Source: Bacillota bacterium
Lineage (GTDB): Bacteria; Bacillota_I; Bacilli_A; RF39; UBA660
Assembly (NCBI GenBank): GCA_015059155.1
Contig: SVAX01000010.1
Span: 1-38,900 of the forward strand
Direction of reading: 5' to 3'
Length of the DNA: 38,900 nt
The first letter of the stretch is position 1. Every line of letters begins with the position of its first letter. Shown here piece by piece: positions 4,170-25,970 of this stretch. A program made the position numbers and the translations under genes. The notes below the pieces were generated by a model. The model was not told the origin of the DNA. It made no database searches and worked only from the letters and a program-made list of their open reading frames with translations.

Positions 4170-4856
4170 TTATCTATTTTGAATTTTTAATCTACTTATC
4201 ACCTTTTTTTCTATTCTTGATATGTAGGATTGACTAATACCTAGTGTACTAGCTACCTCTTTTTGAGTCATTTCTTTAGTATTATATAAACCATATCTCA
4301 TTATCATGATTTCCTTATCTCTATCATTTAATTTAGTTAATTCTTGATAAAGTATTTTCTTTTCTATTTCTTCTTCTAGAGGACGTGTTACTATATCATC
4401 AGCAGTACCTAATATATCTTCTAGGTGTAACTCATTACCTTCACTATCATAGCTTAAACTATCTTCAAAACTAACTTCTCCTCTTCTTCTTTTGTTCTTT
4501 CTTAAAAACATAAGTATTTCATTATCTATACATCTTGATGCATATGTAGCTAGTTTTATATTCTTATCTAATTTATAAGTATTAACTCCCTTTATGAGTC
4601 CAATTGTTCCAATACTCACTAAATCTTCTAAATCTACACCAGTATTTTCATATTTTTTAGCTAAAAATACTACTAGACGTAGATTGTGTTCGATGAGTTT
4701 ATTTCTGGCAAACTCATCACCTGCCATAGATAATTCTACATATTTTACTTCATCTTCCTTAGTTAATGGTTCAGGAAGTTTATCTGCACTACCTACAAAA
4801 TAAATACCCTCACTACTAAGTAATTTCTTTATAAAATTAATTATATCTCTTATCAT
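4170..4856 (-). CDS. sigE: RNA polymerase sporulation sigma factor SigE
   Basis: Sigma-70 region 2 (EDLVSIGTIGLIKGVNTYKLDKNIKLATYASRCIDNEILMFLRK) and region 4 HTH; adjacent to spoIIGA. Confidence 0.93.
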   Translation of the reverse strand: MIRDIINFIKKLLSSEGIYFVGSADKLPEPLTKEDEVKYVELSMAGDEFARNKLIEHNLRLVVFLAKKYENTGVDLEDLVSIGTIGLIKGVNTYKLDKNIKLATYASRCIDNEILMFLRKNKRRRGEVSFEDSLSYDSEGNELHLEDILGTADDIVTRPLEEEIEKKILYQELTKLNDRDKEIMIMRYGLYNTKEMTQKEVASTLGISQSYISRIEKKVISRLKIQNR

Positions 4857-4857
4857 A

Positions 4858-5634
4858 TTATTCCTCCAATAACTTTCTATTTAATATTACCTCTACACCA
4901 TCTAAACTAATATTATCCATTATTCCAAGTAAAATATTACTATATTCCTTATTATCAAATATTAGCTTATCTATCTTTACTACTTTAATCATGTTTGACC
5001 CATTTACCCCCATATAAGGAATTATTCTAAACTCTTTTATATTAAAAAGTAATTTTCTTTTATCTATTAAAATTACTGGCTTATTAGTTAATGTATCTAC
5101 TAAAACATTACCACTATCCATATAGGCTGTGTATTTATATTTTTTATTTTTATTTATTATCTCTATATTATAATAATTTGAATAAGTATATCTTAAATTT
5201 TTAGTTTGTTTAATATAAATATATAAAATAATGGTAGAAAATATAATTAAAAATATAAAGTTTATACTAAGTCCTTTATTAAAGAATATCATTCCTATAT
5301 GTTTATATGAAAATTCTAAATTTAATAAATATAGAAAACCTCCAAGAATTATACTAGACATATATAAGTAAAGTATATTTACTAAAGTATATTTTAAAGT
5401 TTTATATCCGAATGTTGTTAAAATCATTAAAACACTTATAATTAATTTAAATAAGAATAAAAGAATACTATTTACATTAAAGAATAAAAATAGTATACTA
5501 ATTCCTCCTATGAAAGCGCCCAACATTATCCTAGTGATCTTAACATTTCTTTTTAGTATTGCTGTTACAGTTAAAAGCAATATAAAATCTATAGCAAAGT
5601 TTAGTATCATGACTAAATCTAAATATATTTTCAT
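4858..5634 (-). CDS. spoIIGA: Sigma-E processing peptidase SpoIIGA
   Basis: MKIYLDLVMILNFAIDFILLL N-terminal membrane domain, AYMDSGNVLVDTLTNKPVILI aspartic-protease motif; upstream of sigE. Start taken at the internal MKIYLD. Confidence 0.9.
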   Translation of the reverse strand: MKIYLDLVMILNFAIDFILLLTVTAILKRNVKITRIMLGAFIGGISILFLFFNVNSILLFLFKLIISVLMILTTFGYKTLKYTLVNILYLYMSSIILGGFLYLLNLEFSYKHIGMIFFNKGLSINFIFLIIFSTIILYIYIKQTKNLRYTYSNYYNIEIINKNKKYKYTAYMDSGNVLVDTLTNKPVILIDKRKLLFNIKEFRIIPYMGVNGSNMIKVVKIDKLIFDNKEYSNILLGIMDNISLDGVEVILNRKLLEE

Positions 5635-5662
5635 ATAATCACCAAAAACATTATAAAAAAAG

Positions 5663-5682
5663 AACACTATTAAAAGTGTCGT
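5663..5682 (-). terminator. Terminator of the exonuclease gene
   Basis: Minus strand GACACTtttaatAGTGTTC followed by TTTTTTT. Confidence 0.7.
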
Positions 5683-5702
5683 TTTTTATAATTATTTTAA
5701 TT

Positions 5703-6302
5703 TTATTTTCTAATCACAATAAAAGGATATTTGTATAAATCTTTTAAACATTTAAAATTATTTAATTCTAATTTTTGTAACATTTTCAAAAATATTAAGG
5801 CAGTACCCTCACTATCATAATCTGCTCTATGATGTTTATCCTCATTCCAAGGTATATCATATCTTTTAACAAGGGTTGCTAGATTATGATATCTTTCTTT
5901 TGATTCTAAATATCTAGAAAGCCCTAATGTATCTATAACAGTATTTTTAAGAGTTCCTAAGTTATATTTAGAATATGCCATATCAACAAAAGAAATATCA
6001 AATTTAGCATTATGAGCTACCATAGGTATATTTCCTACCCATTCCATAAAGTCTTTTAATACTTCTTCTTCACTTCTTTTACCTTTTAACATTTCATTAT
6101 CTATTCCAGTAATTTTAATTATTTCTTCATTTAATTCTTTACCAGGGTTTATTAATTCATCAAATCTATCTATAATTTTACCATTACTTATTTTAACAGC
6201 ACCTATCTCTATTATAGTATCTCCACTATTAGGATAAAGTCCTGTTGTTTCTAAATCAAATACTACATATGTATCTTGCAATAAAGTTAATTCTTCTACC
6301 AT
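5703..6302 (-). CDS. DEDD-family 3'-5' exonuclease (PolC/DnaQ epsilon-like)
   Basis: YVVFDLETTGLYPNSGDTIIEIGAVKI, VAHNAKFDISFVD, HHRADYDSEGTALIF (ExoI/II/III motifs). Confidence 0.9.
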   Translation of the reverse strand: MVEELTLLQDTYVVFDLETTGLYPNSGDTIIEIGAVKISNGKIIDRFDELINPGKELNEEIIKITGIDNEMLKGKRSEEEVLKDFMEWVGNIPMVAHNAKFDISFVDMAYSKYNLGTLKNTVIDTLGLSRYLESKERYHNLATLVKRYDIPWNEDKHHRADYDSEGTALIFLKMLQKLELNNFKCLKDLYKYPFIVIRK

Positions 6303-6317
6303 ACATCCTCCATAAAT

Positions 6318-6493
6318 TAAAAAGCCAGAAGAGCGATGCCCTGAATCGAATAAAGCCTAGTCTCCCAGGTGGGCATCACATCACAACTTTTAGGATCCCT
6401 AAATTAATAGGTCTTCTACACCAGCCATGAATTAGATTCCCTATATTTTCGATTAGTAGGTTTTTCATAAGGGTTATATCGCATCTTCCAGCA
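6318..6493 (-). ncRNA. ssrS: Structured ncRNA, candidate 6S RNA
   Basis: Promoter TTGAAT (6527-6522)-N17-TATAAT (6504-6499); ~175-nt transcript whose ends pair (GCTGGAAGAtGCGAT / ATCGCTCTTCTGGC) followed by TTTTT; no coding potential. Size and closed rod shape suit 6S RNA. Confidence 0.55.
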
Positions 6494-6533
6494 ATTTAAT
6501 TATATCATTTTTAAAAACCATATTCAATAATTT

Positions 6534-7724
6534 TTAATCAATTTCTTTTTCTTCTGTATATTCTTCTATCTCTTGATATTCTGTAACATCTTCCACTACA
6601 TTAAAAAATATATTAAGAGTGATTGAATCACTGTGCTTAGTTTTATTTAAAACTTTATAATCTTTTACATATTCTTTTTCTTTTAATTTTTCCTCTATTT
6701 TCTTTTTAGCTAACTTTATAGCTTTTTCTATCAACTCTTCTTCTGTATTATTTTCGTCTATCAATATAGTTTCTTTTTGAGTTTGTTTAATAAGTTTTAT
6801 AGGGAGTATATTATTTTTTAATATAGTATTTTCTATAATTTTTTTTGTATTATATTTATTAAAATTAAATAATTCCATATCTTTACCAAAAAACTTAATA
6901 ACTAACACTTCTTTACTATTTCCTGTCTCATACTCTTCTTTATAAATATATGGGTAGTTAATAGTTACTTTATACCATGTTTCTCCATATACAGTACCAC
7001 TACTGCTTACTGTATCTTTAACACTACCATTTAAAGTAACATATCCACTAACAATAATATCTCCTTTTTTTACATATGAATCTATACCTTTAACAATTTG
7101 TCCACTTGATATATTCATATCTCTAATAACACAATCTTTTTTAGCTATTATATTTCTCAGAGGTGTATCTTCCTCAATTTTATTTTTTATTCTAGGTTCA
7201 TACCTTATTATATATTTAGTACCAACATTTTCTATTTCTATCCATTCTAATTTCTCTTTATGATTACTTAATAATTTGTTTTTTATTTCTTGTAATTCTA
7301 TATAACTCTTCTTAAATTTATATTTTTTTATACCTAACTCCCCTAGTTCTTCAAGTAGTACTTTCTCCATTTTAGAATCATTAGTAACAACATCTACTTC
7401 AAATATTAAACTAGTTATTAAATATAAGAAGATTAAACTAATAAGCATAAATATTATTATATATTTATTATTTAGAAAACTATTTTTAGTCCTAATTACT
7501 CCATAGTAATCCACTATTTCTATTTCATAGATAGTTTTTAATTTTATTAATTTATCGTAATCATATTTATATATCTTTATATTTATTTCTTCATTAGATA
7601 TATGTTTTATATTTAATATTTCTATATTATTGTTTTTTAGTCTTTTAATAAATCTTTCTATATTATGACCTTTAATATTAATATTTAATTTGCTTTTTAT
7701 TAAATAAAGTACATTATTTTTCAA
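6534..7724 (-). CDS. yqfD: Sporulation protein YqfD
   Basis: TM segment then long extracytoplasmic domain (RNIIAKKDCVIRDMNISSGQIVKGIDSYVKKGDIIVSG...); next to yqfC. Confidence 0.88.
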   Translation of the reverse strand: MKNNVLYLIKSKLNINIKGHNIERFIKRLKNNNIEILNIKHISNEEINIKIYKYDYDKLIKLKTIYEIEIVDYYGVIRTKNSFLNNKYIIIFMLISLIFLYLITSLIFEVDVVTNDSKMEKVLLEELGELGIKKYKFKKSYIELQEIKNKLLSNHKEKLEWIEIENVGTKYIIRYEPRIKNKIEEDTPLRNIIAKKDCVIRDMNISSGQIVKGIDSYVKKGDIIVSGYVTLNGSVKDTVSSSGTVYGETWYKVTINYPYIYKEEYETGNSKEVLVIKFFGKDMELFNFNKYNTKKIIENTILKNNILPIKLIKQTQKETILIDENNTEEELIEKAIKLAKKKIEEKLKEKEYVKDYKVLNKTKHSDSITLNIFFNVVEDVTEYQEIEEYTEEKEID

Positions 7725-7728
7725 TATA

Positions 7729-7968
7729 TCACCTGAATTCTATATTACTAAAATTACCAGTTATTAATATTTCACTACTTAATAGTTTAGATACTACTAA
7801 ATCACTACCTTTAACTATTACTTCTCCACTTTCTACTTTAACTACTATTTTATTAGAATCAAAATGACCAATATCTTTATAATTAACAATATTGATTTTA
7901 TTATTTACTATTGTTATTTTTAAATCACTATCTAATATATAAGATCTAATACCATTAATTATATTCAA
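7729..7968 (-). CDS. yqfC: Sporulation protein YqfC
   Basis: Short protein directly upstream of yqfD; GEVIVKGSDLVVSKLLSSEILITGNFSNIEF. Confidence 0.85.
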   Translation of the reverse strand: MNIINGIRSYILDSDLKITIVNNKINIVNYKDIGHFDSNKIVVKVESGEVIVKGSDLVVSKLLSSEILITGNFSNIEFR

Positions 7969-9549: not shown

Positions 9550-10644
9550 CTAATTTTGTTGAATGTCATCTATTGAAACAGTTATAACTGGACGAACACC
9601 ATAGTTATTGTTGTTGACGATATTGCTGGTGTCGTCGTTGTCCACAAAACCTTCGGAGAACACACTCCAAGCGATGTCAGAATAGTCTGCATCAGAGGCA
9701 AGTATCCAATATCCATAAACGCCACTTATATCATTTGTTTGATATCCCAAATCAGCCATATAATCATACAAATATGCATTTGTTCCATCACTCTTATAAT
9801 CTGATACTTCTGATAATTTTGGTAATCTTGCTTTACCATTTAGTGTAATGGTTCCATAATTATCACCTTCATCATCATATGTTTCGTTAATTTGAGTTAT
9901 CCAAGATGATGTTGCAGTGTTTAAATAGTCCATTGCTGTTACTGGCCCGTATTCATTTGTACAACTATTATCATCTTCACACGAATTCTCATTATACCAA
10001 GCTACTGCGCCTTTATACGCTACAGTATCTGAGTCTACTGGTTGTCCACTTGCATTTATATTAGCATACATTATTAAATTTGTTTTTCCATCTGCATTTT
10101 GTCCTGGAAGTACAAAGAATGTATATCCTTCATCATTTTCTAAATCCATGTCTTCTTCTACTGCACATAGATATTTATCTCCCTCACTTATTCCTGTTGG
10201 AGCTACATCATCTATTAATTTACAGATTGGTTCTTCTTCTTCAGTTTTACCATTTTCATACTTATAAGTTGAAGAACTATCATTTACTCTACATCCAAAC
10301 AAAGTTACTTCTCCCACACTTGTTACACTTATAGTTTCGCATACTATATTTCCATCATAATCAACAGTTATTGTATCCTTAACAACACCATTTTCTTTGT
10401 ATTGTAATGTCACCCCATCTTCTGTAGTGTAGTAACCTGCTTGAGGTGATTTTTTATGTTCTAAATGATAAGTAGCTATAGCATTCTTTACCCCTCTTAC
10501 ATACATATCTATGCTTCTTTTATTAGCTTCTTCTTTAGTATTTTCTATAATATTTAATACTATTGGTGTTGCTATTAAAGCTATAATTGCTAGTATTACT
10601 ATTACTGCTAATAATTCTATTAATGTAAATCCTTTTCTTTTCAT
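9550..10644 (-). CDS. Type IV pilin-like protein with putatively diversified C-terminal domain
   Basis: Prepilin signal MKRKGFTLIELLAVIVILAIIALIATPIVLN; C-terminal ARLPKLSEVSDY...GYWILASDADYSDIAW...YGVRPVITVS domain shared with 24975-25970. Confidence 0.9.
   Translation of the reverse strand: MKRKGFTLIELLAVIVILAIIALIATPIVLNIIENTKEEANKRSIDMYVRGVKNAIATYHLEHKKSPQAGYYTTEDGVTLQYKENGVVKDTITVDYDGNIVCETISVTSVGEVTLFGCRVNDSSSTYKYENGKTEEEEPICKLIDDVAPTGISEGDKYLCAVEEDMDLENDEGYTFFVLPGQNADGKTNLIMYANINASGQPVDSDTVAYKGAVAWYNENSCEDDNSCTNEYGPVTAMDYLNTATSSWITQINETYDDEGDNYGTITLNGKARLPKLSEVSDYKSDGTNAYLYDYMADLGYQTNDISGVYGYWILASDADYSDIAWSVFSEGFVDNDDTSNIVNNNNYGVRPVITVSIDDIQQN
9591..9720 (-). other. Candidate DGR variable region (VR-1)
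   Basis: Locally GC-rich, NNC-codon-rich coding for GYWILASDADYSDIAWSVFSEGFVDNDDTSNIVNNNNYGVRPV. Confidence 0.55.
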
Positions 10645-24974: not shown

Positions 24975-25970
24975 TTAACCTATATCATAAGTTGAAACTG
25001 TTATAACTGGACGAACGCCAACCATCGGTTCCGACGTGGAGTCGACGGAGTAGTTATACAAAACGCCATGATAGCTCACAAACCAAGCGTAGTCAGATCT
25101 GGCTGCATCAGAGGAAAGTAACCAATATCCATCAAAGTTCGAATAACCATTTGTCTGATACCCTTCCATATCCAGCAAATAATCATACAAATACCAGTTT
25201 GCACCAGTTTCCTCATCATAATCTGATACTTCTGATTTTTTTGGTAATCTTGCTTTCCCATTTAGTGTAATAGTTCCATATCTACCACCTTCATCAGTAT
25301 ATGTTTCATTAAGGCTTAATTCTTCTTTCCATTCTGATGTTGCGTCATCTAAATATGCCATTGCTGTTACTGGCCCATTTACATTTGAACCATCTTTAAA
25401 CCACTCTACAGCGTCATGTTCTAAATCTTCTGAGTCTACTGGTTGCCCACTTTCATTTATATTTGCATACATTATTAAATTAACTGATTCTACATTTCCT
25501 GATGCATCTTTATTTGTAGAAAGCACATAGAATGTATATGGCTCTTTATTTAGATCAACTTTACAATTATATTTTGCTCCTTCATTTGTTCCTGATACTG
25601 GTGAATCTTCTGCCCAATTACATATACATGCTTCTTCTTGATATTCATAAGAATATTGATTAGATACATGACTTATTTTAACAGAACCAGTGATTTCTGA
25701 ATTATCTTCTGGATTTTTTACTTCATTACCTTCTATATAACCTAAAGTTATTAATTCAGAAACACTAACACAAGTATCTTCAATTGACATACCTTCTTTT
25801 AAATAATATGTTTTTGCAGCATCTTCTATTTTTTTTATTTGTGTTTCAGATAAAGAACTTTTTGTACTGTTTAAAACAGAATTAACAGAAACTACTGTTA
25901 TTAACATAATTACAGCTAAAATTATTAAAACTGCTAATAATTCAATTAAAGTAAAACCATTTTTTTTCAT
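24975..25970 (-). CDS. Type IV pilin-like protein with putatively diversified C-terminal domain
   Basis: MKKNGFTLIELLAVLIILAVIMLITVVSVN; C-terminal domain homologous to 9550-10644 ending GVRPVITVSTYDIG. Confidence 0.9.
   Translation of the reverse strand: MKKNGFTLIELLAVLIILAVIMLITVVSVNSVLNSTKSSLSETQIKKIEDAAKTYYLKEGMSIEDTCVSVSELITLGYIEGNEVKNPEDNSEITGSVKISHVSNQYSYEYQEEACICNWAEDSPVSGTNEGAKYNCKVDLNKEPYTFYVLSTNKDASGNVESVNLIMYANINESGQPVDSEDLEHDAVEWFKDGSNVNGPVTAMAYLDDATSEWKEELSLNETYTDEGGRYGTITLNGKARLPKKSEVSDYDEETGANWYLYDYLLDMEGYQTNGYSNFDGYWLLSSDAARSDYAWFVSYHGVLYNYSVDSTSEPMVGVRPVITVSTYDIG
25010..25150 (-). other. Candidate DGR variable region (VR-2)
   Basis: GC-rich coding for GYWLLSSDAARSDYAWFVSYHGVLYNYSVDSTSEPMVGVRPV; differs from VR-1 mainly at codon positions 1-2. 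Confidence 0.55.

Follow-up and report, generated by a model that had tools for sequence, protein, structure and literature searches.

Pilin-like proteins of an uncultured Bacilli genome carry probable variable regions of diversity-generating retroelement targets

The stretch flagged at the 3' end of a pilin gene is, very probably, the variable region (VR) of a diversity-generating retroelement (DGR) target, namely a type IV pilin-like protein that would display a hypermutable beta-hairpin on a C-terminal domain of probably lectin-like fold. DGRs hypermutate chosen protein sites. The window, that is, the whole stretch of 38,900 nucleotides that was analysed, corresponds to contig C10 in an assembly (G000) of 1.0 Mb that is 69.6% complete. 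A preliminary description had quoted the codons of the stretch, which are the exact reverse complement of positions 25005-25150 (minus strand), and had placed a second pilin with a matching variable region 15 kb away. This is the case: the second gene (p1, pilin 1) lies ~15.4 kb from the first (p2, pilin 2). The features are as follows.

24975-25970, minus strand: p2 gene, 331 aa, with the ATG start at 25970 and the stop at 24975-24977.
25896-25967, minus strand: type IV prepilin N-terminal methylation motif of p2 (KKNGFTLIELLAV...), residues 2-25; PF07963, 27.8 bits with a cut-off of 21.2.
24978-25589, minus strand: compact C-terminal beta domain of p2, residues 128-331, a distant DUF6273 relative.
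25008-25115, minus strand: VR of p2, SSDAARSDYAWFVSYHGVLYNYSVDSTSEPMVGVRP; GC3 0.61, alignable with the template repeat (TR) of the related genome G208.
25007-25019, minus strand: conserved 3' end of the p2 VR, GGCGTTCGTCCAG, at the position equivalent to the initiation-of-mutagenic-homing (IMH) site in relatives.
9550-10644, minus strand: p1 gene, 364 aa, with the same architecture as p2.
9589-9699, minus strand: VR of p1, ASDADYSDIAWSVFSEGFVDNDDTSNIVNNNNYGVRP; GC3 0.61, alignable with the G208 template.

Both proteins score above the cut-offs of N_methyl PF07963 and TIGR02532, and the p2 model has a helix at residues 8-34, fulfilling the hydrophobic helix criterion of type IV pilin-like proteins. 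The N-terminal halves of p1 and p2 had been called distinct; they do differ, but both are prepilin-type stems. The C-terminal domains are 61% identical over about 167 residues, with the previously listed anchors GYW, SDA, AW and GVRPVITVS in register. In both genes the VR sits at the 3' end and combines a fixed scaffold with NNY/NNC variable codons, as required of a DGR target.

The codon usage of the two VRs sets them apart from the rest of the contig. The GC island noted earlier is confirmed: at both the 100- and the 140-bp scale, GC content on the contig peaks in windows that begin at 25007-25009 (0.53 and 0.48, respectively, versus a mean of 0.258). Among 9,973 33-codon windows from 39 genes, the p1 and p2 VRs hold ranks 1 and 2 in GC3 (0.61 each), the background having a mean of 0.12 and SD of 0.07 and the next unrelated window reaching 0.36; their GC3 is therefore far beyond chance. 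Just upstream of the p2 VR, positions 25119-25217 (YDEETGANWYLYDYLLDMEGYQTNGYSNFDGYW) show a modest unexplained GC3 rise (0.36) that is absent in p1.

Differences between p1 and p2 at codon positions 1, 2 and 3 number 16, 14 and 8 in the VR, and 39, 35 and 41 in the remaining domain. This is the direction expected for a DGR, although taken alone such a sequence comparison is weak evidence. As p1 and p2 differ at eight third positions, the two cannot both have been copied recently from a single template. The same test pooled over all G000 paralogues was uninformative (third-position share 0.35 upstream and 0.33 in the VR), since most pairs are old.

AlphaFold gave confident models, with a full-length pLDDT of 84 for p2 and, for the domain, a pLDDT of 87 and a pTM of 0.88. 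The VR is modelled as strands 294-299 and 304-308, i.e. a beta-hairpin in which the fixed W, V and G alternate with variable residues. Against DUF6273 (PF19789) the domain scores 14.1 bits, below the gathering cut-off of 23.5, so that membership is not met; five of 12 homologous domains match DUF6273 weakly (best 7.5e-5). In fold searches the p2 domain matched viral DUF6273 models (best 9.8e-6), and in the PDB the T. ramosa IgA peptidase was best (8.5e-4), with no other match passing 0.001; the weak matches included EgtB II (0.03) and Mtd and CD94/NKG2A (E about 3). DUF6273 phage DGR targets are reported to have a C-lec fold with the VR as a surface beta-hairpin (PMC10743442), and in Faecalibacterium prophage DGR targets VRs lie at the C-terminus of DUF6273 (PMC11792537). 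Given the weak fold matches and these papers, a C-type-lectin/FGE-like fold is likely for the modelled domain, not proven; that the tip binds ligands is inferred. The proposal of a diversifiable domain would have been refuted by a conserved DUF whose homologues have the same residues. Here, the VR residues differ among homologues and the anchors are kept.

The mechanism itself is seen in relatives of the window's organism, which have complete DGRs with pilin targets of this kind. In a family-level search, the domain was present at E<=1e-15 in 22 of the 386 genomes sampled. In G208, a genome of the same family that is about 95% complete in 5 contigs, the domain is found on no fewer than eight pilins, and locus L153 contains a complete cassette:

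7315-7740, minus strand: MutS_I-like protein.
6977-7333, minus strand: bAvd (PF22296, 5.4e-13).
5812-7014, minus strand: reverse transcriptase (RT) with GLPIGNMSSQ and YMDD.
5625-5729, minus strand: TR, the AAC-rich template.
4203-5276, minus strand: homologous pilin.

G208 thus fulfils the criteria for a DGR (RT, Avd, TR and VR, with adenine-directed mismatches), and G078 has the same arrangement. The preliminary description had proposed a diversifiable domain without naming a DGR; the domain stands, and the same domain is targeted by a complete DGR in the same family. Small ORFs were observed before Avd in the cassettes L153, L046, L047, L050, L051 and L052; both of those tested (L153 and L046) match Pfam MutS domain I, the ORFs in the other cassettes being similar.

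The G208 TR and VRs were compared over 105 bp, comprising 37 adenines and 68 other bases. The L136 VR is changed at 21 of the 37 adenines and at none of the 68 other bases. The corresponding counts of changed adenines and other bases are 21 and 1 in L132, 19 and 2 in L133, which is adjacent to the cassette, 26 and 5 in L135, 18 and 12 in L134, and 19 and 15 in L130; the L131 and L129 VRs show no adenine bias against the TR. The bias is significant in six of the eight pilins, with Fisher p from 2e-12 to 3.6e-11 for three remote VRs and 6.5e-9 for the adjacent one. Most of the non-adenine changes seen in L130 and L134 replace C by T, the pattern that drift towards AT would give. GC3 follows the order of adenine bias: 0.62-0.69 in the four adenine-clean VRs, 0.47-0.50 in the next and 0.09-0.15 in the two without bias. 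By the mismatch counts in these eight pilins, it seems that at least six of them, five remote, have been supplied by a single template, and the VRs appear to age.

The p1 and p2 VRs can be read against this template. Its translation is SANADNANNAWNVNNDGNVNNNNVNNDNNYGVRP; compared with it, A, W, V and G, the fixed residues of p1 and p2, largely coincide, variation falls on the N positions, and the 5' half of both VRs is in codon-by-codon register. The alignment scores, 100 for p1 and 67 for p2, were each reached by none of 1,000 codon shuffles, and both alignments beat all 1,000 shuffles without the 3' anchor too. Mismatches fall at 15 of 38 adenines and 14 of 63 other positions in p1, and at 22 of 38 and 20 of 67 in p2, a moderate bias only, with a template from another genus. 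Both VRs are slightly longer before GVRP, hence their own template differs from that of G208. The conserved 3' end corresponds to an IMH-like motif at which TR/VR identity stops in G208 (GTGCGCCCAG) and G003 (GTTCGCCC). A further variable block suggested upstream (NGYSNFDG in one pilin, NDISGVYG in the other) is not supported as a block of the same kind: the G208 template boundary puts the VR start downstream of GYW and the block therefore lies outside the VR. The modest GC3 rise of p2 falls in this part of the gene.

By this mechanism, the RT would misread adenines while copying the AAC-rich TR, and the resulting cDNA would take the place of the VR as far as the GTTCGTCC motif. New amino acids would arise where AAY codons change at their first two positions, with the scaffold AW.V...G.V...GVRPV staying fixed. 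The TR of the window's own species would be expected to have the scaffold TCTGATGCA..TCT....GCTTGG..TGTG.

The window's own genus has complete DGRs as well (G012 contigs C9 and C28, G010 C72, G011 C11 and G003 C76). In 90-bp window scans, 85-100% of their TR/VR mismatches are at template adenines, and their RTs carry IGNxTSQ motifs. At least two, G012 C9 and G010 C72, have pilin-stem targets (GFTLIELLAV), and a truncated DGR target in G003 ends in GVRPVITIS, an ending of the kind that p1 and p2 have. Comparison of three pilin VRs in G002 shows differences chiefly at the first two codon positions (4/12/1, 8/15/2 and 8/16/3 at positions 1/2/3); no template was found in this genome. Phages and viral contigs yielded no relative of the domain, and no viral contig had an exact match to the IMH.

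In the window's own genome there are five strong copies of the domain (two on C10 and one each on C16, C12 and C15), weaker copies on C6 and C13, and a looser pilin relative on C8. The earlier suggestion of one diversifiable domain on distinct pilin stems is thus supported and extended: of at least five strong copies, three have type IV pilin stems and two have TasA/camelysin-like exported ones. Pilin-type stems are found on C10, C15, C13 and C8, and the TasA/camelysin-like type on C16 (L005) and C12 (L006); the latter label is our reading of the sequence and not a database match. Two more VR-like ends, closing in GVRPVLYLKSDVSK and EVRPVLYLKSDVS, are on C6 and C15. On C6, locus L144 (39001-44000) encodes a 1042-aa protein with one domain of AT-rich codons and a second with a DGR-like, GC-rich VR end (VSYYYSNAYNTFGVRPVLYLKSDVSK, 42399-42410). 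A second ORF near the C15 pilin (L007), a separate frame, has the VR-like end WTITPISNYWSGVFAVGSPGNVSHCDASNPIEVRPVLYLKSDVS.

That the VRs of the window were made by a DGR is an inference, and the presence or activity of a DGR in this organism today has not been demonstrated. No DGR RT and no bAvd were found in the 69.6% complete assembly, nor was a template repeat by searches for IMH-like and template-like patterns; with none of the three in an assembly ~70% complete, present activity remains unproven. The sole RT in the assembly is a Drt2 defence RT (L002, C4:121888-122562; PADLOC 2e-125) and not a DGR RT.

It is accordingly possible, if somewhat doubtful, that the VRs are relics, made by a DGR since lost in the lineage and now drifting, which would be a variant of the DGR reading and does not exclude it. 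The absence of RT, Avd and TR from 1.0 Mb of assembly is compatible with such a loss, as are the C-to-T third-position drift of the ageing G208 VRs and the state of G002. The latter genome (L058-L060), 94% complete, has adenine-type pilin VRs and no RT match; its DGR may be lost, unbinned, or on another element. Comparison of p1 and p2 also revealed no common 3' flank, a point against both being current targets of one template. However, the assembly of the window is merely 69.6% complete, and the GC3 of p1 and p2 (0.56-0.57 by the measure used for G208) is close to the values of the clean VRs, and the drifted VRs lie far below it.

The flank matters because it may act as a cis element. In G208, the four adenine-clean VRs have ~100 nt of 3' flank in common, which the other four lack, and its distribution does not simply match the phylogeny of the pilin bodies: L134, whose body is 94% identical to L133 and L136, is drifted and lacks the flank, yet L132, with a body only about 60% identical, has it. 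Because the flank tracks clean VRs and not simply body phylogeny, the VR with its flank may be a portable unit, possibly needed for homing; this rests on sequence comparison only. No convincing stem-loop of the BPP-1 type was found downstream of the IMH behind p2 or the clean G208 VRs, and hairpins behind some other VRs are terminator-like. We tentatively propose, with more reserve than for the VR itself, that one trans-acting DGR diversifies the surface repertoire of these small-genome Bacilli, several type IV pilin-type and TasA-like fibre proteins across the chromosome. Retrohoming would be licensed by a portable 3' tail made up of the VR and the ~100 nt that follow it, and targets without this tail would no longer be rewritten and would age by C-to-T drift.

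An ordinary ligand-binding loop under diversifying selection, without any retroelement, is unlikely. In its favour, some homologues (the first C6 domain, the C13 copy, and L129 and L131 of G208) vary with ordinary AT-rich codons. Still, selection on amino acids does not explain why GC3 jumps from 0.17 to 0.56-0.6 in the VR alone, or why a non-coding template is matched codon by codon. Recombination of cassettes from silent pilin copies could account for 5' and 3' anchors common to several genomic copies of the domain, but it is very improbable as the source of variation: the copies are dispersed, each in its own open reading frame, no tandem silent cassettes were seen, and differences in relatives are adenine-directed rather than mosaic. 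Horizontal acquisition of a GC-rich segment, for which the position of the contig's local GC maximum might speak, can practically be dismissed, as the GC-rich part spans ~35 codons within one domain, has AT-rich domain sequence on both sides, and recurs in several paralogues and species.

The DGR interpretation agrees with known systems in several respects. Like DGRs of the BPP-1 Mtd type, those of the relatives have an RT with IGNxxSQ and YMDD, bAvd, adenine-directed TR/VR mismatches, a VR at the 3' end of the target and a domain consistent with a lectin-like fold. Unlike them, the targets are chromosome-dispersed type IV pilin-stem proteins, the relatives' cassette includes a MutS_I-like gene, and the window's assembly has no cassette. 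With the DUF6273 phage targets known as tentaclins (PMC10743442) p2 shares a VR hairpin (modelled at residues 294-308) in a DUF6273-like domain, probably also of C-lec fold, and with the Faecalibacterium prophage targets (PMC11792537) a VR at the C-terminus of such a domain; in contrast to both, the stems here are bacterial, pilin-type and TasA-like, and the domain is below the DUF6273 gathering score. As with cyanobacterial remote targets (PMC7517822), one DGR appears with dispersed paralogues (CLec in the cyanobacteria, probably so here), some with a mere remnant of TR homology; those proteins are mostly predicted to be cytosolic and often kinase-linked, whereas the ones described here are surface pilin-type.

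In Bacteroides, DGRs diversify tip adhesins of type V pili (Macadangdang et al., as cited in PMC12632263). Likewise, the DGR there diversifies a C-terminal binding domain that is associated with a pilus, in gut bacteria, the difference being lipoprotein pilins of type V there and type IV prepilin stems in low-GC Bacilli here. A link between DUF1566 targets and putative pilin structures has also been mentioned (PMC6642488). DGRs, C-lec targets, remote targets (PMC7517822) and DGR-diversified type V pilus tips (cited in PMC12632263) are already known; what is added here is the type IV pilin stem as a carrier of DGR targets, in uncultured Bacilli. No paper combining "diversity-generating retroelement" with "type IV pilin" or "prepilin" was found, with partial coverage of the literature.

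The G208 set offers fresh and aged VRs within one genome, and the cis requirements of remote retrohoming are therefore testable. For these uncultured, reduced-genome Bacilli, DGRs aimed at many dispersed type IV pilin-type surface proteins suggest an adaptable adhesion repertoire.
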